Below are positions 14,721-27,891 of a stretch of DNA of 64,000 nt, in pieces. Every line of letters starts with the position of its first letter. Within the stretch, counting starts at the first letter, position 1. A program made the position numbers and the translations under genes. Below the pieces are notes generated by a model. It worked only from the letters and a program-made list of their open reading frames with translations, searched no databases and was not told where the DNA came from. Source of the DNA: Nitrospinota bacterium (lineage in GTDB: Bacteria; Nitrospinota_A; UBA7883; JACRLM01); assembly GCA_016208975.1 (NCBI GenBank), contig JACQXA010000004.1, positions 1,675,015 through 1,739,014 of the forward strand, read 5' to 3'.

Positions 14721-17700
14721 TCAGGCCACATAGCGTTTGACTATGGGAAGTAAGCTTTTCTCGTCGAAAGGTTTGGTCACATATCCATTGGCGCCAAGCC
14801 TGAACGCGTTTTCTTTGGCGGTGGCTGTCAAGTCGGCGGTGACGATTATGACGGGTATTTTAGCCGTCGCCGGGGTGGTCTTTATAATCTTTAGCAGATC
14901 CAGCCCGTCTATCTCCGGCATCATGATGTCCGCCAGAACAAGATTCGCCCCTATTTTCCCCAGAGTCTCCACGGCCTCCCTGCCCGACGCCGCTTCAAAA
15001 ACCGTTACGCCTATCCGCTCCAGCTGGGCCCGTAACAGCCGCCGCGTGGCGGGCTCGTCCTCCACCACCAGCGCCACCGGTTGTTTGTCCGGAAGTGACG
15101 CGTGAAAAACGCTTCCCTTCCCCTCTTCCGATTCAACGGTCAGTTCGCCTCCTAGGGCGCTCATGATATCGTGGCTTAGCGGAAGCCCGAAGCCCGTGCC
15201 CACTTCACCCGCCGTTCCCGGAATGGACGTTTTTTCCTCGTGCCTGAAAAGTAGCGGCAGAAGCTGTTTTTTCACGCCCGTCCCATCATCGGCTACTGAA
15301 ATGATTATACGGCCCCCCCCTTGCGCCGCGTTCAGGCGCACGGACTGGCCTGCATGGCTGAACTTTATGGCGTTGGTCAACAGGTTCTGGATGACTTCTT
15401 CAAGAAGGCCGCTGTCCGTATAAAGCCGCAAGCCGGAAGGGATTCCGTTGACGACAGTTATCCCCTTCTTTTCCGCAAGCTGGCTTATCTTGCTTATGAC
15501 GGCGCCGGAAAGCTCACATGTATCGAAGAACCTGGGTTCGGGTTTTATCTTGCCCGTCTGGAGCCTGCTTATGTTCAACAACTCGTCAACGGTGCGGATC
15601 ATCCGCTCCATGCTGTTGGCCACATGTCCCATGATCTCTTTCTCCCTTGCGCCCATCTGCGCCGTTCCGTCACCATCCATCAACCGGAGCAGGCTCATCG
15701 CGCTGGACATGGGTGACTTGAGGTCATGGGCGACAAGAGACACGAACTTGTCTTTCAGCTTGGTGGCGGCTTCAGCCTCCTCCTTGGCCCTTTTAAGCGC
15801 TTCTTCGGCGAGCTTGATTTCTGTTACGTCCTGCGCCACGCCGGATATTTTCCCCCGGCTCCTGAATATCTTAACGAACATGTGGATGTGCCGTGTCCGT
15901 CCACCAACGATAACCCTGAAATTGATGTCGGAACCGGCGAACTTTGTAATGGCGTTATCCAGCGCCACCTCCACAAAATCGCGGTCTTCCGGATGGCTGA
16001 CATTTAGAAGTAACTCGTAAAGGCAGTCCATGGAACATTCGCGCCGCTCGGGGCCGAGGTTGAATATGCCCCTCATCTCGTCGGAAAGGGCCAGCCTGTT
16101 CGTGAGGACGTCCAGGTTGAAACTCCCGATGCGGGCTATCTTCTGCGCCTCGGCCAGGTTACTCTGCGCTTCAAGAAGCCTGTCTTCCGCGCGCTTGCGC
16201 CCGGTGATGTCCATGTTGCTGGCCCGGCGGCCCAGCCATTCCCCGTCTATGTCGAAAACGTTCTGACAACAATGGAGGATCCAGCGCTCCTCCCCGCTCT
16301 TGGTGGTTATCCTGAATTCCAGTTCGTGGTAACCGACGCCGCCGTGTATTGTACGGTAGTGCTTTTCAAGCGCTTCCCTGTCATCCGGATGGGTGATGCG
16401 GATTTCCAGGCTGTCGTCCTCCAAAAACTCCTCTCTGGAATAGCCGGAGATTCTCTGGCACGAGGGTGATATATAAAGAAGCCTTCCTTTCGGGCCGCGC
16501 CACTCTTCCCAGTTGAACGTATGGTCGGCCACTGTCCGGTATCGCCGTTCGCTCTCCTCCAGCGCCTTCTTGGCGAGGTTGCGCTCCGTTATGTCCCTGG
16601 CGACACCGGCGGCCCACCATTTGTCCCTGTACCAGAGGGCGGAAATGGAAAGTTCCATCGGGAACTCATCACCGCTCTTGCGCATGCCCGCAACCTGGAT
16701 GGTCTTGCCGATGATAGGCCCGTGGCCCGTGGCGGCGAAATTGGAAAGCCCCTCGCAGTGGGCTTCCCGTAACCTTTCGGGTATGACCAGGCTGGAGATC
16801 AGCTGGCCCACGGCTTCCGCGGACGTATATCCAAAAATCCTTTCCGCCGCCGGGTTCCAGAAGTTTATAATTCCGGCGCTGTCTATCATGATGATGGCGT
16901 CGTTCACCGAGGATGTGACCGTACGTAGCGTCTCCTCGCTTTTTCTTATGGCGTCCTCCGCGGCCCTGCCCTCCGTAAGGTCTCGTATGGCGGTTATCCG
17001 CGCCTCCTCCCCGCCGATGACTATGGACTTGCCGCGGATTTCAAGGGGGAATACGGAGCCGTCTTTCCTCAATCCCATTATTTCGTAGGGCCTTTCGTAG
17101 CCGGAAAGCATGTTGTTCTTGACGATCCCTCGGTACTCCGGGGCCGTAAGCTCCAGCGCCGAAGCGCCGATAAGCTCTTCACGGGAATAACCGAACATCC
17201 TTGTGAAGAAACTGTTCACGTCCAGGAATTTTCCGTTACGCGAGATGACTATGCCCTCAAAGGCCGCTTCGTTGAGCCGTTCAAGCCTCTCCTCGCTCTC
17301 CCGCAACGCCTGCTCGGCATTCTCGTGTTCTTTAATCTTGGTCAGCAGAGCCGCGTTGGTCTCGTCCAGTTTTAGCTTTTCGCTGGAGACCTGCTCTAAA
17401 AGTATGGTGTTTTCGAACCTGATTAAAAGCGAGGTGTTGGCCGAATTGTTCATCTCCCTGGCCAATATTGTCATAAGTATCCCGTAGGCCCCCACCAATA
17501 AACCTGTGGCAAGGCTGGTCTCGTCCGCCTCCAGAACAAGCTTCACCGCCAGCGGAACCAGCAAAGGAATAACATAAGCGTAGAAAACCCCCATTACCAC
17601 CGAATCGGCCACCACCGCCCCTATTGCCATACCGCCCAGCACCAGCACCGTGAATATCTTGTGGGACAAAAGTTGCACAGGCATGAGGATAAGCGCAGCC

Positions 17701-18029
17701 GACCCCCATATGGCGCCGGAGATGAAAGCGGAAGCCATATACAGATTCTTCCATTTCCCAGCGCTGGAGACATCCACATCGGCGCGCCTGAACTTTACAA
17801 CCATTGCCATTCTTGCCGCCGTAATGGCCCACACGAATGCTACCCACGCGATAATTAACGGATGGTCAACGGCGTCCCACTGGACGGCGGCCATGATTAT
17901 TGAATTGAGGATGTTGGCGGCTATCACTACGTTTGCATGGGCAAAAAGGAGCTTTATTCTTTCGATGGATATGGCTTGGCCGACGGGAGTTTTATTCGAA
18001 GAAAAGCCGTTAAAGGATAAATTCTTCAT
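14721..18029 (-). CDS. Membrane-bound hybrid sensor histidine kinase with multiple PAS domains and a receiver
   Basis: A 1102-residue protein. Residues about 20-205 contain five to seven membrane helices forming a membrane-embedded sensor region, followed by a short coiled coil. Four PAS-type domains follow at about 245-355, 370-485, 500-615 and 625-740. The dimerisation domain carries the phospho-His in [15 protein letters not shown] (about 775). The ATPase (about 870-975) has VADDGTGV and GTGFGLPLS. The C-terminal receiver (about 985-1102) has its phosphoacceptor in [11 protein letters not shown] and a Lys in YVTKPFDE. The core is paralogous to the kinase at 8110-10518. No partner regulator is adjacent. 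The signal is unknown. Confidence 0.88.
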
Positions 18030-19897: not shown

Positions 19898-21079
19898 ATG
19901 AGTAGGCAAACAGGGCGTTTCATAATTCCTCTTATCGCTTTTCTATTTACCATTGTCTGGTCAGCGTTTTCATTCGCGGACACTGCCATCGGCGCAAAAG
20001 TCACTTTCGTCCAGGGCAGGGTCACCGTATTGACTGTGGATTCCAGGGAACTGACCCTCAAACTCGGAATGACCGTGCGGGCGGGGGACAGGGTGCGCAC
20101 ATCGGAAAGCGGCACAGCCGAAGTGGAGTTCGACAATGGCGACCTGATCCGTATAGATAAAAACACCGACATGGTGATCAAGTCTCTCCACCGCAATCCC
20201 AAGGGCTCCAGTTTTTCCATATTCAGCCTGTTAGTAGGCAGGGTGAAATCATCGGTCTCCAAGCTGGTGGACACGGCCTCCAAGTTCGAATATCACACCA
20301 AGGCCGCCATATGCGGCGTGGCGGGCACTCCTCCTTTCGTGGTGGAAGCGGTGGGGGACACCACCCATGTGGACCTGCTGGGCGCTCCTGGCGAAAGGGG
20401 CGCGGTGTATGTCCAGGGGTTCGACCCCGCGACCACCATGGTGACTGTATTCTCCTCCACCCGCACCACCGTCAGTTTGGGAAACGCGCCGGTTAATCCT
20501 TTCCCGATCACCCAGGACAGGTTCATGCAGTTGAACAGGGCCCTGCCGTTCCGCACCCCTGTTAAGCCCAGGGAGCCAGCCCCGGTGGTTAGGGAGGTAA
20601 AACCCGAGCCTAAAAAAGAGGTAAAACCGGAACAGCCCGCGGAGATTGTCCCAGAGGAAGTTCCCCCCGTGGAGCCTGAAAAACCGGTGGAGCCGGAGAA
20701 ACCGGTAACGCCCGAGGGGGGCCAACAACCAGGTGATACAACGGGCCAGCCGCAAAATGGCGGTGGCGGGGCAGAGCAGGGAGCGCTTATGGCTCCTCAG
20801 GAGCCTAAACTGTTGACCACCCCTGCCGTGATAGACACTGGCCTTACCGGCGGGGCCGCGGGTTTCGGCGGCGCCCAGGAGACTATGGTGTTAAACAACA
20901 TCAGCAGGACTGTGAGCCTGCCCAAGGTCGCCGCGCCGGACCAGACCAACTCCCAGGCGTCCATAGAGAACCAGGCGTCCTCGCAACAGGGCGTCATCGG
21001 CCAGCAGACCACCACATCCGGGGCCGCGGCGCCGCCCCCATTAACCGCTCCCGTCCACATACAGGTTATTTTGAAATGA
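19898..21079 (+). CDS. Secreted FecR-domain protein with proline-rich tail
   Basis: A 393-residue exported protein. The signal peptide covers residues 1-27 (cleavage near SFA-D). A FecR domain follows at about 30-150 (AKVTFVQGRVTV, GMTVRAGDRVRT, FDNGDLIRIDKNT), continuing with a beta-rich segment to about 205. Residues about 210-300 are Pro/Glu/Lys-rich with PEKPVEPEKPV-type repeats, then a Gly/Gln-rich tail. In classical FecR the domain signals from a TonB receptor to a sigma factor across the inner membrane. This one has a cleavable signal and no cytoplasmic anti-sigma part, so it is a periplasmic or surface protein. Its stop is 4 bp before the outer-membrane barrel gene, and a CHASE2 cyclase follows. 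Confidence 0.83.
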   Translation: MSRQTGRFIIPLIAFLFTIVWSAFSFADTAIGAKVTFVQGRVTVLTVDSRELTLKLGMTVRAGDRVRTSESGTAEVEFDNGDLIRIDKNTDMVIKSLHRNPKGSSFSIFSLLVGRVKSSVSKLVDTASKFEYHTKAAICGVAGTPPFVVEAVGDTTHVDLLGAPGERGAVYVQGFDPATTMVTVFSSTRTTVSLGNAPVNPFPITQDRFMQLNRALPFRTPVKPREPAPVVREVKPEPKKEVKPEQPAEIVPEEVPPVEPEKPVEPEKPVTPEGGQQPGDTTGQPQNGGGGAEQGALMAPQEPKLLTTPAVIDTGLTGGAAGFGGAQETMVLNNISRTVSLPKVAAPDQTNSQASIENQASSQQGVIGQQTTTSGAAAPPPLTAPVHIQVILK

Positions 21080-21083
21080 CCAT

Positions 21084-22262
21084 ATGAAAATAAAACCAGA
21101 CCGCTTTCTTTACGCCTGGGCCATCGTTTTGATGGCTCTTTCCTCGCCAGCCACCGCCCAGGAGGAGGGCGTTCCCGTAAAGAACCCGTGGCTTCTCACA
21201 ATCTCCTCCAACTATGGCAAGTGGAGCGCCTCCGATGTGACAAGCGACGGGAACCAGGCGCTGGGGCTGGTCCAGCTTTCCTACTCGCCGGGGGATTGGG
21301 GCGCGGCGGTCTCCGGCACTTACGCAAAGACATCGTACAAATCCGCCACCAGCGAAAACCGGTTCGACGTTTCAACCCTGGCGGATTCGGACCTTTCCCT
21401 GTTCTATATGTACAAAACCGGCGGTTTGACACTAAGGGGCGGGCTGGACGCGCGCCTTCCCACGGGCAAACACAGCTTTTCCACCGAACAGCTGGCCACC
21501 GTGATGGTGGACGAGCTGAACCAGGAGTTGATGCTGTTGAACACATATGGCGGCGGGCTGAACATAATCCCCAACCTGGTGGCGGTTTTCAGCGTGAAGC
21601 CTTTCACTTTCGGCGCCGGTTTGCGGTATGAACTCACCGGGGAGTACGACCCCACCACCGACACCGAGGGTGACAATTTCAACCCGGGGGACCGTCTGCT
21701 GGCGCTGGTGAACGGCTCGTTCTCTTTCAGCGATAGCGATATTGTGATGCTCACCCTTTCATATCTCAACCTGACCCGGGACAAGCAGGGCGGGGCGGAC
21801 GTGTTCAGGCAGGGTGACACATACTCGGCGGATATGAAATATTTCCGCGCATGGGGGGATATGTTCACCTCCATACTGGGCGTCACTTACAAGACCCAGG
21901 CAAAGAACGAATCGCTCTCGTCGGAAAGTTTCCTGTTAAGCGAAGCGTCCAACTCCAACAATAACATCCTGGACATCTACGCCAACGGCACATACAGGTA
22001 TTCGAAAGAAATAGCTATCCAGGGTGTGGTTGGCGTGAAGTTTGTGGGGGCCAACGGCTACCTGGAGGATGACCCCTTATACGACGCGGGGCTGGATAAA
22101 ATATATGTGGAGCCGGGGGTTACCTGGTATTTCACCGAAAGCGCTTATGTGAGCGGCAAAATCCGCTATTCAAGGATAAAGAACAAGAAAGACGCCCTTT
22201 CCGAGGCGGACGCGGTTTATTCGCTATATAACGCCGATGTCTCCTTCGTTTACGGGTTTTAG
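21084..22262 (+). CDS. Outer-membrane beta-barrel protein of unknown function
   Basis: A 392-residue exported protein. The signal peptide covers about residues 1-25 (cleavage near ATA-Q). The rest has alternating polar/hydrophobic strands with aromatic girdles (for example GLTLRGGLDARLPTG and ending DVSFVYGF with a C-terminal Phe), as expected for an outer-membrane barrel of about 14-18 strands. No family name is recognised. It starts 4 bp after the FecR-domain gene, so the two are almost certainly co-translated. It could anchor or export the FecR-domain protein, or be a channel whose state that protein reports. Confidence 0.75.
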   Translation: MKIKPDRFLYAWAIVLMALSSPATAQEEGVPVKNPWLLTISSNYGKWSASDVTSDGNQALGLVQLSYSPGDWGAAVSGTYAKTSYKSATSENRFDVSTLADSDLSLFYMYKTGGLTLRGGLDARLPTGKHSFSTEQLATVMVDELNQELMLLNTYGGGLNIIPNLVAVFSVKPFTFGAGLRYELTGEYDPTTDTEGDNFNPGDRLLALVNGSFSFSDSDIVMLTLSYLNLTRDKQGGADVFRQGDTYSADMKYFRAWGDMFTSILGVTYKTQAKNESLSSESFLLSEASNSNNNILDIYANGTYRYSKEIAIQGVVGVKFVGANGYLEDDPLYDAGLDKIYVEPGVTWYFTESAYVSGKIRYSRIKNKKDALSEADAVYSLYNADVSFVYGF

Positions 22263-22263
22263 C

Positions 22264-22304
22264 GGGCGGGCCGCGCTGGAGAAGGGGGCGCCTCCGCGCC
22301 GCCC
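22264..22304 (+). other. GC-rich hairpin between the barrel gene and the cyclase gene
   Basis: GGGCGG plus CGCG on the left pairs with CGCG plus CCGCCC on the right, with a two-base bulge, just after the barrel stop codon. It has no T-run. It may lower read-through or stabilise the upstream mRNA. Confidence 0.35.
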
Positions 22305-22349
22305 GGCGCGCATTCCAACCCCCACAGCCAAAGGAGCGTGTGACCCACT

Positions 22350-24590
22350 GTGTGGCCGCTAAAACGTATCTATTTCATCCTCCTGGCCGCCATGATGGCG
22401 CTGGCTTTCAAACCCCCATTCTTTATAGAAGCTTTCGAGCTTAAAATTTACGACCTGCTCATCCGTTATTCCGCCCCGAACCAGCCGGATCCGAGGATTG
22501 TAATCGTAGGCATTGACCAAAAATCCCTCGACAATTTCGGCCGGTGGCCATGGTCCCGGGACGTGATAGGAAGGCTGGTGGAAAAGCTGGCGGGGTACGG
22601 CGTAAAGGTCACCGCGTTGGATATGACCTTCTCCTCCCAGGCGGACACCGCCACCCGCGACATTTTAGAAAAAGTGGGGCAGGCGGCGGTAAGGACCGGC
22701 GCAGTGGAGAAGATCCCGTCGTTCAACCAGGAGCTGGAAAAACTCAGGCAGGAAACGCAAAAAGACATGGCGCTGGCCGGTTCCATGCGCAAGGCGGGCA
22801 ACGTGGTTACGGGTTTCGTGTTCCACGGCATGGACGAGGCCGAGTATTCCGCCGAGGTGGAAGAGCGGAAACTGCCCATCGTGCAACCGTTCCGCATAAA
22901 ACTTGTCCAGCGGGACTCGGAAAGCCGGGACGCTTCCCTGCTGTCGCTGGCGGCGGGGGTGGAGCCCAACATCCAGGCCATCCAGGAGGCAGGCTCCGCC
23001 ACCGGTTTCCTCAATACCCTCACTGACGAGGACGGCGTAATCCGCGCCCATCCCATGGTGATGGAGTATAAAGGGGACCTGTACCCATCCCTGGGGCTGG
23101 CCGCGGCGGCGGCTTATTCAGGCGACACCGGAGACATCCAGGCCTACTTCGCCGATGGCATGTTCGACGGCGTTGCCATAGGCGACTCGTTCATCAAGAT
23201 GGACCATTACGGCAGGATATTCCTTAAATATCTCGGCGGGGTGGATACTTTCCCAACCATTTCGGCGGCGGATGTATTGCTGAAACCGGTGGACGACGAG
23301 GGCTTGCGCCGGAAACTTTCGGGCAAGCTCGCTTTTGTGGGCGCCACCGCCACGCAGATATACGACCTCCGCGTTACCCCCATCGGTTACACCGCCGGGG
23401 TGCAGGTGCAGGCCACCTCCGCCTCCAACGCCCTCACTGGGCAGGTGATAAGCAAGGAAGCGTGGCAGACCCTTTACGACCCGGTACTCACTGCAGTGGC
23501 GGGGATGGCGCTTTTCTTCATCCTGCGCCGCGTGCGGGTGGCGCTGGGGCTGGCGCTGACGGCGGCCATGCTGGCGCTCCTGGTGGCGTTCAACTACTAC
23601 ATGTTCGCGGAAAACCATCTTTGGCTCAACTCCGTCACCCCCGGCATGATGATCCTTTTCGGATTCATCACCATAACCACGCACCAGTACATTACGGAGC
23701 AGAAATCCAAACGTTTCATCAAGGACGCTTTCGGCAGGTATCTCTCCCCCAAGGTTATAAACCAGATAATAGACAACCCCGGCCTGTTGAAACTGGGGGG
23801 CGACAAAAGGGTTATGACCGCATATTTTTCCGATGTGGCGGGATTTACCACCGTATCCGAAAAGCTCCCCCCCACCGAGCTTGTGCTGTTGCTCAACGAG
23901 TACCTCTCGGCCATGACCGACATAATCCACACCTTCGACGGGACCGTGGACAAATACGAGGGGGACGCCATAATAGCCTTCTGGAACGCCCCCATAATGG
24001 TGGAGAACCACGCGGAGCTTTGCGTGCGCTCCGCTGTGGCAATGCAGAGGAAGCTTGAGGCCATGCGCGGCAAATGGCGCTCCGAAGGAAGGGACGAACT
24101 GCACGTGCGGATGGGCATTAACACCGGCCCCATGGTAGTGGGCAACATGGGATCCCGCGAGCGGATGGACTATACCATGATGGGGGACTCGGTGAACCTG
24201 GCCGCGCGGCTGGAGGGGGTGAACAAATATTACGGAACTTACATCCTCGTCTCCCAGTTCACCCGCGACATGGTGGCCGACAGGTTCCTGTGCCGGGAGC
24301 TGGACATGGTGAGGGTGCAGGGCAAGAAAGAGGCCATAAAGCTTTACGAGGTGGTGGAAGCCATGGAAGACTCCATCGAGACCCAGCGGCGTTTCGTGGA
24401 GATGTTCCACCGCGCCATAAGGACCTTCCGCGACATGGATTTCCTGAAGGCCCAGGAGTTGTTCTCCGCCTGTGACAAACTTAAAAAGGGGGGTGACGGC
24501 GCCTGCAAGCTATACCTTAAACGTTGCGCCGAGCTTATCGCCTCCCCGCCCGCCCAGGATTGGGACAGGGTGTACGACATGGCCAAGTAA
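22350..24590 (+). CDS. CHASE2-domain class III adenylyl cyclase
   Basis: A 746-residue membrane enzyme predicted to make cyclic AMP. GTG 22350 is the first possible start after an in-frame TGA, with AAGGAG 13 bases upstream. One membrane helix (about 6-25) leads into a periplasmic CHASE2 sensor (about 26-370), then three helices (about 373-450) and a cytoplasmic class III cyclase domain (about 480-680). Metal-binding Asp residues are in YFSDVAGFT and KYEGDAI. The adenine-selecting Lys (VDKYEGD) and Asp (MDYTMMGDSVNLAARLE) both point to ATP rather than GTP. The tail is helical. It is the third gene after the FecR-domain and barrel genes, which suggests that these supply its envelope signal. 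Confidence 0.9.
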   Translation: MWPLKRIYFILLAAMMALAFKPPFFIEAFELKIYDLLIRYSAPNQPDPRIVIVGIDQKSLDNFGRWPWSRDVIGRLVEKLAGYGVKVTALDMTFSSQADTATRDILEKVGQAAVRTGAVEKIPSFNQELEKLRQETQKDMALAGSMRKAGNVVTGFVFHGMDEAEYSAEVEERKLPIVQPFRIKLVQRDSESRDASLLSLAAGVEPNIQAIQEAGSATGFLNTLTDEDGVIRAHPMVMEYKGDLYPSLGLAAAAAYSGDTGDIQAYFADGMFDGVAIGDSFIKMDHYGRIFLKYLGGVDTFPTISAADVLLKPVDDEGLRRKLSGKLAFVGATATQIYDLRVTPIGYTAGVQVQATSASNALTGQVISKEAWQTLYDPVLTAVAGMALFFILRRVRVALGLALTAAMLALLVAFNYYMFAENHLWLNSVTPGMMILFGFITITTHQYITEQKSKRFIKDAFGRYLSPKVINQIIDNPGLLKLGGDKRVMTAYFSDVAGFTTVSEKLPPTELVLLLNEYLSAMTDIIHTFDGTVDKYEGDAIIAFWNAPIMVENHAELCVRSAVAMQRKLEAMRGKWRSEGRDELHVRMGINTGPMVVGNMGSRERMDYTMMGDSVNLAARLEGVNKYYGTYILVSQFTRDMVADRFLCRELDMVRVQGKKEAIKLYEVVEAMEDSIETQRRFVEMFHRAIRTFRDMDFLKAQELFSACDKLKKGGDGACKLYLKRCAELIASPPAQDWDRVYDMAK

Positions 24591-24611: not shown

Positions 24612-27600
24612 TTAAACCTCGCCGATCTCCCCCTGTTTGGAGTACAGGGCAAGCTGGTTCTTCCCCTTGCTTTTCGCCAGGTACATCGCCTCGTCGGCCA
24701 GTTTCAATAGGGTCTGCGCGTCTTTGGCCATGCCGGGGTATATGGATATGCCAAGGCTCGCGCCAATGACTATGTCGTGGCCTTTCAGGTTGAAAGGCTC
24801 CTTGAATTCGGCGAGAATTTTCTCCCCCACCCGCATAAAATCCTCCTCGGAGCGGGCGCCCTCCAGAAGCACAACGAATTCGTCCCCTCCAAGGCGGGAG
24901 ATTGTGTCCTCCTCCCGCAAGGTCGCCACCAGCCGCAAGGCCACGCCCTGCAAAAGCATGTCGCCGGCCTCGTGGCCGCAGGAGTCGTTGATGGCCTTGA
25001 ACCCGTCCAGGTCCATGAAAATTATGCCCAGCTTTGTGCGGCCCCGCCTGGCCTTGGCGATGGCGTGGGATATCCGGTCACTAAACAGCGACCTGTTGGG
25101 AAGCCCCGTGAGGGGGTCGTGATTGGCCCGGTAGCTTATCTCGTCCTCCTGGTTCTTGCGCTCGGTAATGTCGTGGAAAACGGCCACGTACAGCGCCTGG
25201 CCCCCCTCCTCCCCGGGAATTTTGCTGATGCTCATCCATTGCGAATACACCTCGCCGCTTTTTTTCCGGTTCCACACCTCGCCTTTCCACTGCCCTTCCG
25301 CCAGGATTTTCTCCCACATCTCCCGGTAAAATTCCTGCCCGTGCCGGTCGGACTTGAAAATCCTTGGTGTGAAGCCTATCACTTCGTCGGCGGAGTAACC
25401 GGTTATCCATGTGAAAGCCGGGTTTACGGAAAGGATCTTGGCGGACGAGTCGGTTATCATCACGCCGTCCAAAGTGCTTTCGAAAACCTTGGCCGCCAGG
25501 CGCAACTGGGTTTCCGCCGCTTTTATGCCTGTGATGTCCCGCCCGTAAATGTTCACCACCCGGTGTTCAAGTATGGGCACGAAGCTAAGGGTGTATTGCC
25601 GGCCGGAAGCCATGGCTTCAATTTCTATATGATTGCCGCTCTCGATGGCGCGCTGTATCACTTCGTTTACATACGCGGGAACAAATCCGCCGATGTCCAC
25701 TCCCCATTTGGCCAGCAATGGCCTTGCGCCGGTGTTGGCGTATGTCAGGGCGCCTTCCGCGGTCATCTTCATTACCGGGTGCGGATTGAGGTCCGGGAAC
25801 TTGGCCATCTTCAGGATTTCTTCTTCGGCCTGCTTGACGGCGGATATGTCGTGCCCGTAGATGTTTATGTAGCCAGCGTCCGGGAAGGGTTTGAAGGTCA
25901 TGGCGTAGGTCTTGCCGGCCACCTCCACTTCCATGTCCAATGTCCTGTCGGCCTTGAAGGCCCTGGCCGCTTTTTTGCGCAGTTCCCCCTCCGCCACCTC
26001 GCCCCTTTCCGCTCCCCAATGCTGGAGTAGTGGCGAACTGGCTTCGTTGGCGAAAAGTACCAGGCCCTCCGGGCCCATCCTCATCACCGGATGGGGGTTC
26101 CGCTCGGCGAAGGAGGCTATGGAGGCGATCTTGGCCTCGGCGTCTCTCCTTTCCGTGGCGTCCCGCGCCACGCCAAGAAGATAGCCGTCCGGAAGAAGCT
26201 TGGCGCTGATATCGGCGTAAACCAGCGAGCCGTCTTTTTTCTTTAGCCGCCGTTCGGCGGATAGGACCTTGCCGGACATCAATTCGTCAAACCTCACCGG
26301 CTTGGCCTTCAGGTCATCCGGATGGACTATGTCGGTTATTTTCAGTTTCTGGAGTTCTTCAATGGAATAGCCCAGCAGGTTCAAACCGGCTGGGTTGGCC
26401 TCCAGGTAACGCCCCTGGCTGTCCGTCACGAATATCCCCTCGGCGGCCTGCTCCAGGACAACCTTGCTCCGGCCCTCGATTTTCGCCAGGAGCTCCTCGG
26501 CCCGTTTGCGCTCCAGTATGGCGGCAAGAAAATCCGCCACGCCCCTGATGGCGGCAACCGTGGCCGGTGGCACGTTCCTGCTCCGCTGGTCTCCCAGGGA
26601 AACCACCCCAAGCACATGCCCCCGGGCTTTTATGGGGACGCACACGAAAGCCCGCGTTTTGAGCTTTCTTAATTCCGGCGAACTGTACTCGGCCCTGTCC
26701 AGCGCGTTGGTCTCCACAATCTCCCGCCCGGTGGAGGCCACTATTCCAGACAGTGACTGGTTTAACGGAACCCTTATAGGCGGCTCCGCCAGCCCGTCGT
26801 TTGAGCCCATGAATACCATCTCCCCATTCTGCTGGTCATAAAGCTCTATGGCCGTGTTGGGGAAGCCGAAAAGCTCCGACATGATCCTGGGCGCCTGTTC
26901 ATAGATGGATTCTATGTTCTTTACCCCGATGAACACCCGGGCGATGCTATTTATGGCGTCCAGCGCCATCTCCGCGTTGAACCGGGTGGTGACATCCCTG
27001 CAAACGCCCCTGTACCCGGAGATGGCTCCGGTGGCGTCGGTTATGGGCCAGCCGCTTACTTCCAGGACGCGTTCCTCGCCGTCGCCAGCTTTTAAGCGGG
27101 CTCTTATGTTCGTAAACCGGGTGTTGGATAGCAGGCTTTCAAGGATGTCGGTCTGGTCTATCTCGCCGGTACGGAAGAAATCCACCATGAACCTTCCCAG
27201 AGCGCTCTCCGGCGTAACGCCCAGGATATTTTCCACGTAGGAGTTCGTATAGGTGAACCTTAACGCCGTGTCCACCTCCCATATCCATTCCCCGGCGCTC
27301 TCGGCCACGTCGGAAAGCCTTTTTTCCGAATCCCGCAGGCTCTTCTCCGCGGCTCTTTTCCCGGCCATAAGGCGGCGTTTTTCCTCCTCCGCGGATATGG
27401 CCGTTAGTATTTCATCCACGAACCGCCCATTCCGGTCGCGTAACACAAAGTTTGTGCTTAATGTGTTTAGCGCCGCGGTAGCTACGTCGTTATCGGCGTC
27501 GCCGATGATGATTTTTAGAGGGGCGAAAGGTTTTTGGAATGAAAGGCGGTAAAGCAGGCTGGATAGTTCCCTGTCGGCGAAAGCCTGCCAGTCCACTATA

Positions 27601-27791
27601 ACAGCGTCGTAATCGCCGGATTTTATCCGTGAGGCTCCTTCGATGTCCGTGGCGGCGGTATCTATCAGGAAGCCCTTTAAGGCGAACTTCTCCTCCAGGA
27701 AACTTCTGCGGACAGCTTCCTGATCCACATAAAGTACACGAGTCACATTGACCACCCCGACTATCCTGCCCCCGTTCCCACCCGGGGACAT
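24612..27791 (-). CDS. Diguanylate cyclase with receiver-like, GAF and multiple PAS domains
   Basis: A soluble protein of about 1059 residues predicted to make cyclic di-GMP. The frame is open to 27842, but that ATG has no ribosome site; ATG 27791 (AGG nine bases before) or GTG 27746 (GGGGTGG five bases before) are better. Domains: receiver-like N-terminus with Asp in AVIVDWQAF, PAS (about 145-270), GAF (about 270-425), PAS (about 430-550), two shortened PAS repeats starting with NPHPVM (about 555-770), PAS (about 770-890) and GGDEF (about 895-1040). The active site SRLGGDEF is intact and is preceded by inhibitory-site REED at the correct five-residue spacing, so product feedback is expected. 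It converges on the adenylyl cyclase gene with 21 bp between. Confidence 0.92.
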   Translation of the reverse strand: MSPGGNGGRIVGVVNVTRVLYVDQEAVRRSFLEEKFALKGFLIDTAATDIEGASRIKSGDYDAVIVDWQAFADRELSSLLYRLSFQKPFAPLKIIIGDADNDVATAALNTLSTNFVLRDRNGRFVDEILTAISAEEEKRRLMAGKRAAEKSLRDSEKRLSDVAESAGEWIWEVDTALRFTYTNSYVENILGVTPESALGRFMVDFFRTGEIDQTDILESLLSNTRFTNIRARLKAGDGEERVLEVSGWPITDATGAISGYRGVCRDVTTRFNAEMALDAINSIARVFIGVKNIESIYEQAPRIMSELFGFPNTAIELYDQQNGEMVFMGSNDGLAEPPIRVPLNQSLSGIVASTGREIVETNALDRAEYSSPELRKLKTRAFVCVPIKARGHVLGVVSLGDQRSRNVPPATVAAIRGVADFLAAILERKRAEELLAKIEGRSKVVLEQAAEGIFVTDSQGRYLEANPAGLNLLGYSIEELQKLKITDIVHPDDLKAKPVRFDELMSGKVLSAERRLKKKDGSLVYADISAKLLPDGYLLGVARDATERRDAEAKIASIASFAERNPHPVMRMGPEGLVLFANEASSPLLQHWGAERGEVAEGELRKKAARAFKADRTLDMEVEVAGKTYAMTFKPFPDAGYINIYGHDISAVKQAEEEILKMAKFPDLNPHPVMKMTAEGALTYANTGARPLLAKWGVDIGGFVPAYVNEVIQRAIESGNHIEIEAMASGRQYTLSFVPILEHRVVNIYGRDITGIKAAETQLRLAAKVFESTLDGVMITDSSAKILSVNPAFTWITGYSADEVIGFTPRIFKSDRHGQEFYREMWEKILAEGQWKGEVWNRKKSGEVYSQWMSISKIPGEEGGQALYVAVFHDITERKNQEDEISYRANHDPLTGLPNRSLFSDRISHAIAKARRGRTKLGIIFMDLDGFKAINDSCGHEAGDMLLQGVALRLVATLREEDTISRLGGDEFVVLLEGARSEEDFMRVGEKILAEFKEPFNLKGHDIVIGASLGISIYPGMAKDAQTLLKLADEAMYLAKSKGKNQLALYSKQGEIGEV

Positions 27792-27891
27792 TTTATTCAG
27801 CCTGTTTACAATATACCCGACAAACCAATGGGATACAACCATCGAAAGCGATGATAATGTAATACTCTATTACTGGTATATATAAAATGCC

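Follow-up and report, generated by a model that had tools for sequence, protein, structure and literature searches.

A FecR-domain protein, an outer-membrane barrel and a CHASE2 adenylyl cyclase encoded as a conserved unit in a Nitrospinota bacterium

The locus and its three products

The window, i.e. the whole stretch of 64,000 nucleotides that was analysed, contains three consecutive genes on the forward strand with the following features.

19898..21079, + strand: secreted FecR-domain protein, 393 aa
19898..19981, + strand: signal-peptide-like N-terminus (about residues 1-28), recognised from the sequence, no lipobox Cys; helix 9-23 in the model
20087..20380, + strand: FecR domain, residues 64-161 (Pfam PF04773)
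20546..20797, + strand: flexible linker rich in Pro/Glu/Lys, residues ~217-300, of very variable length among homologs
21044..21076, + strand: conserved, beta-strand-like C-terminal tail of alternating pattern, VHIQVILK; the pattern ends nearly all homologs
21084..22262, + strand: outer-membrane beta-barrel, 392 aa, 16 strands, without match to a Pfam or NCBIfam family
22350..24590, + strand: CHASE2 adenylyl cyclase, 746 aa, GTG start at 22350
22386..23471, + strand: CHASE2 sensory domain, residues 13-374 (Pfam), predicted periplasmic
23814..24335, + strand: class III cyclase domain, residues 489-662 (Pfam), with all catalytic residues

Open reading frames, coordinates, strand and Pfam matches bear out the three same-strand genes and the 4 bp gap between the first two that were reported in a preliminary description of this DNA. 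The barrel and cyclase genes are separated by 87 bp; with this gap and the GTG start, the cyclase may or may not be co-transcribed. A promoter and terminator scan at the locus gave no informative site. The flanking genes code for an amino-acid permease, a PAS hybrid histidine kinase and a PAS/GAF/GGDEF protein, and no sigma-factor, phosphodiesterase or TPR gene is found among them. Both signalling genes run antiparallel to the three genes: the PAS-rich hybrid histidine kinase at 14721-18029 (- strand) and the GAF/PAS/GGDEF diguanylate cyclase at 24612-27842 (- strand).

The FecR and barrel proteins were modelled as single chains with AlphaFold2. The FecR protein matches PF04773 with an E-value of 3.7e-7. 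No FecR_N or anti-sigma domain was detected in it by Pfam or in the structure model, and NCBIfam returned sub-threshold relatives only (Lsa33, LipL45 and the LapA retention module). In its model, the FecR domain is predicted with confidence (~residues 30-200), and the linker behind it is disordered. The best Foldseek matches are the periplasmic signalling domain of PupR (6ovk, E 3.7e-5) and a FecR-type putative anti-sigma factor (4m0n, E 3.9e-5). The alternation of the C-terminal tail has a mean run of 3.65 vs 1.56 in shuffled sequences, and other FecR proteins carry the variants RININFR, VQIRIRLK and VVITIK. This tail may be the docking element for the barrel.

The barrel protein, modelled with 23 homologs, is predicted to be a 16-stranded outer-membrane protein (pLDDT 84) and terminates with a Phe. 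Pfam identifies neither a plug nor an STN domain. Foldseek retrieves generic porins only, so that the fold points to no particular export partner or transport substrate. A well-known export partner of the barrel, which the preliminary description had set against its own reading, was not found: the porin fold is generic and no exporter family is matched. In other phyla, TPR proteins with CsgG-like stretches take the place of FecR in front of the related barrels (L225:9119-11211, L226:9344-10642, L227:9202-10623). The protein of L225 ends with IEVEVRIPK, a tail of the same strand-like kind as that of the FecR proteins.

The cyclase matches CHASE2 (PF05226, E 2.3e-53) and Guanylate_cyc (PF00211, E 7.5e-21). 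Its hydrophobic segments lie at residues 7-28 and ~374-420. All six catalytic residues of class III cyclases are present (D495, K535, D539, T609, N616 and R620).

Gene order in the phylum

The conservation of this arrangement was examined in 24 genomes of the phylum, 16 of which encode homologs of the barrel. At all 24 testable loci, i.e. those with the upstream side on the contig (23/23 and the window), the gene immediately upstream of the barrel encodes a FecR protein. The genome of the window encodes only two FecR domains, one before each of its only two barrels. The cyclase directly follows the barrel in 6 of ~22 pairs, belonging to six genera (the window, L039, L041, L042, L054 and L032), and lies a few kb from the pair at two other loci (L030, L053). 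About 0.02 such triads would be expected by chance among 22 barrel pairs, a figure to be read with the kinship of these genomes, which are not independent; more reliance is therefore placed on the differing flanks. A radA/DUF4124 flank is common to L039, L041 and L042; L088 carries the cyclase at this flank without the FecR-barrel pair. The triads of the window and of a second family, f6, have other flanks. Altogether, the six triads lie in two or, more probably, three different surroundings at the least. The co-occurrence count suggested in the preliminary description thus shows that the gene order recurs, so that the refuting condition named there, an order not conserved among relatives, does not hold; the triad of the window is a real, conserved unit.

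The linkage to the cyclase is looser than that of the first two genes. In G001, the closest relative among the genomes examined, the barrel (57% identical) and the cyclase (70% identical) are encoded on different contigs; the cyclase linkage is therefore facultative. Most FecR-barrel pairs have no cyclase alongside. Conversely, G013, G018 and G023 encode the cyclase without any FecR-barrel pair, and elsewhere it is mostly unlinked. In the barrel tree, cyclase-linked barrels do not form one clade (five changes, as in shuffles), and all four cyclase-linked barrels of the window's order fall within one of two halves. FecR and barrel constitute a conserved gene pair, of which the cyclase is a facultative partner.

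Relation to described systems and a probable relay across the envelope

The closest described system is NsrA-CyaK of Sinorhizobium meliloti, which acts with CyaD1/CyaD2 and Clr. CyaK is SMb20776, encoded on pSymB (PMC5498481). Published accounts show that its response to an external protein signal requires NsrA, and that cAMP rises and acts via Clr (PMC7529298, PMC10463352, PMC13001267); the barrel of NsrA reportedly occupies residues 600-1200 (PMC7529298). When the pSymB record of strain 1021 was searched for FecR domains, only one was found. It belongs to an ORF of 1219 aa comprising an N-terminal FecR domain, TPR repeats and a C-terminal region, and the stop of this ORF overlaps the start of a 649-aa CHASE2 cyclase ORF. 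We infer that these neighbouring ORFs (L209:4229-9837; pSymB 1567228-1572836) encode NsrA and CyaK, NsrA being identified by its position and length. The locus tag of NsrA is presumably SMb20775. The available abstracts and passages of the NsrA papers mention the barrel only, whereas the 1219-aa ORF bears a FecR domain.

Both systems gather a FecR domain, a barrel and a CHASE2 class III cyclase in adjacent genes, with cAMP as output. In S. meliloti, however, FecR, TPR and barrel form one 1219-aa protein, whereas here they correspond to two genes without TPR. In profile comparisons, the FecR family of the window matches the FecR region of NsrA (95.8% probability, E 6.7e-9) and its cyclase matches CyaK over its length (E 1.9e-69). 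No homology was found between the two barrels in a single-sequence comparison (hhalign probability 0.3%). The system of the window would work like NsrA-CyaK without being an NsrA ortholog; by analogy, an external signal would raise cAMP through the barrel.

Other combinations of FecR and CHASE2 have been published. Clusters of a CHASE2 adenylate cyclase, a FecR outer-membrane protein, a phosphodiesterase and a TPR protein were described in Campylobacterota in 2022 and proposed to form one pathway (PMC9239204). There too the cyclase gene adjoins that of a FecR-domain envelope protein, but the phosphodiesterase and TPR genes are absent here and the barrel of the window is a separate gene. In the BiofilmReg operon of Burkholderia contaminans, published in 2016 (PMC5192318), a secreted FecR protein gene likewise lies beside a CHASE2 sensor gene; it differs by its output through a histidine kinase and response regulator, by the lack of a barrel and by a LysM domain on the FecR protein. 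Among 80 named CHASE2-cyclase loci outside the phylum, a FecR-domain gene lies no more than 300 bp away in 12 cases and elsewhere in the fetched flank in 9 others, against a chance expectation of ~0.2 if 5 FecR genes per 4000 are assumed. These taxa include Sulfurimonas, Bacteriovorax, Nitrospinaceae, Acidobacteria, Limnobacter and Desulfobacteria. The Bacteriovorax FecR protein possesses a C-terminal stretch with weak barrel matches and is a candidate fused FecR-barrel protein.

The preliminary description knew of no described pathway of this form, which was wrong in view of NsrA-CyaK and of the Campylobacterota clusters. The claim of novelty therefore falls, while the proposed mechanism gains support. 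The pathway as proposed is of an already known kind. What is new is the split design of the receptor, a barrel family without Pfam match, the C-terminal strand of FecR and the link to lipoproteins described below, with their exchange for the cyclase.

Our favoured reading, held with moderate confidence, is that the three genes encode a trans-envelope receptor of the NsrA-CyaK type, split into two genes, that relays an outside signal to cAMP. The 16-stranded barrel would meet the external signal in the outer membrane. The FecR protein would be exported to the periplasm and dock on the barrel by its C-terminal strand, and the Pro/Glu/Lys linker would let the FecR domain span the periplasm and touch the CHASE2 domain of the cyclase in the inner membrane. 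When the barrel receives a signal, the contact between FecR and CHASE2 would change and so switch cAMP synthesis. Possible receivers of this cAMP are among the proteins that account for the 12 cNMP-binding-domain matches of the window's genome. Where present, a lipoprotein would be the ligand-binding or cargo part.

This relay is supported by the domains, the conserved pairing, the recurrent cyclase linkage, the homology of FecR and cyclase to those of S. meliloti and the intact catalytic site. It is also supported by the FecR genes beside CHASE2 cyclases outside the phylum and by the predicted FecR fold, which is shared with the domain through which PupR communicates with an outer-membrane receptor. 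The absence of a cyclase beside most FecR-barrel pairs, that of the relative G001 included, argues against it, as do the presence of cyclase orthologs with other neighbours such as a kinase-WD40 gene and the lack of homology to the NsrA barrel in the single-sequence comparison. The chain from barrel via FecR to the CHASE2 cyclase and cAMP, put forward in the preliminary description, is the best-supported reading; which proteins touch, which way the signal runs and what it consists of are inferred only. For both of its steps, barrel to FecR and FecR to CHASE2, the strongest outside support is the genetics of NsrA-CyaK.

What CHASE2 domains sense is generally not known, as was stated for CHASE2 kinases (PMC5192318). 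FecR accompanies CHASE2 in many phyla, in one protein with a barrel in the case of NsrA and as a gene of its own here. This suggests a shared answer, namely that CHASE2 reads a FecR protein and the latter reads the outer membrane. The split version offers two small proteins that lend themselves to separate expression and testing.

Lipoprotein linkage and other explanations

The preliminary description passed over a family of lipoproteins to which the FecR-barrel pair is linked more often than to the cyclase. These proteins share a conserved N-terminal domain of ~110 residues, followed by variable PKD, Fn3, LRR or Kelch modules. The domain shows the pattern 'WPEGYxYD...VTLTISG' (e.g. L035:6879-8261). 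Barrel and lipoprotein domain are either both present or both absent in 23 of 24 genomes (both in 15, barrel only in 1, lipoprotein only in 0, neither in 8; Fisher 1.2e-5), and a lipoprotein occurs in the neighbourhood of ~15 of 20 pairs with visible flanks. In the window's order, it adjoins 10/10 testable pairs without cyclase vs 0/4 cyclase-linked pairs, as tallied by hand (Fisher 0.001). None lies near the triad of the window, and the three copies of that genome are located elsewhere. In family f6 (L054, L032, L030), lipoprotein, FecR, barrel and cyclase occur together. Lipoproteins and cyclase thus replace each other beside the pair in the window's order, and the sister family has both. 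This link suggests a possible source of ligand specificity.

The same linkage is the basis of another explanation, that the FecR-barrel pair is primarily a device for the export, anchoring or display of modular lipoproteins with the cyclase as a monitor or passenger. Outgroup barrels fit it as well, since TPR/CsgG lipoproteins substitute for FecR upstream of them and lipoprotein genes are close by. However, the dedicated cargo lipoprotein present at most homologous loci is absent at the window locus and near the three other cyclase-linked pairs of its order; export therefore cannot be their sole role. The generic porin fold without exporter family match also speaks against this explanation, which we consider rather unlikely. 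A wider proposal, which we advance tentatively, sees in the FecR-barrel pair an undescribed outer-membrane module that would serve this phylum generally as a receptor or for display, in which the lipoproteins would be interchangeable ligand-binding parts sharing one N-terminal docking domain, the cyclase one plug-in output and the C-terminal strand of FecR the common barrel-docking element.

An ordinary porin and a FecR-type envelope protein could also lie beside an independent cyclase without any joint function, as the genomes with an unpaired or unlinked cyclase would allow. The excess of triads over the chance figure, the adjacency of CHASE2 cyclases and FecR in many phyla and the fused NsrA beside CyaK, whose function was shown, make this improbable. 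A degenerate Fec/CSS system with a lost sigma factor, suggested by the fold shared with the CSS domain of PupR, is scarcely credible for a protein without anti-sigma domain, a locus without nearby sigma gene and a 16-stranded barrel that lacks plug and STN and so is not a TonB-dependent receptor.

Membership of the Fec/CSS family was accordingly rejected, three defining features (sigma, anti-sigma and TonB-dependent receptor) being contradicted. FecI-FecR-FecA and PupR-PupB resemble the locus in that a periplasmic domain of FecR fold relays from an outer-membrane protein, but differ by these same components; the preliminary description was right to call the locus unlike Fec.

Cyclase orthologs of the window's order also occur directly behind a Ser/Thr kinase-WD40 gene (L086:2295-6395, L090:8229-13988), an arrangement likely in L089 and L091 too. 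The kinase of L086 and L090 bears WD40 repeats and a zinc-ribbon-like N-terminal start, and is possibly another partner of the cyclase. In part of family f6, a single-domain cNMP-binding protein is encoded directly 3' of the cyclase (L093:9026-9517, L094:3227-3718) and is a candidate direct reader of cAMP.
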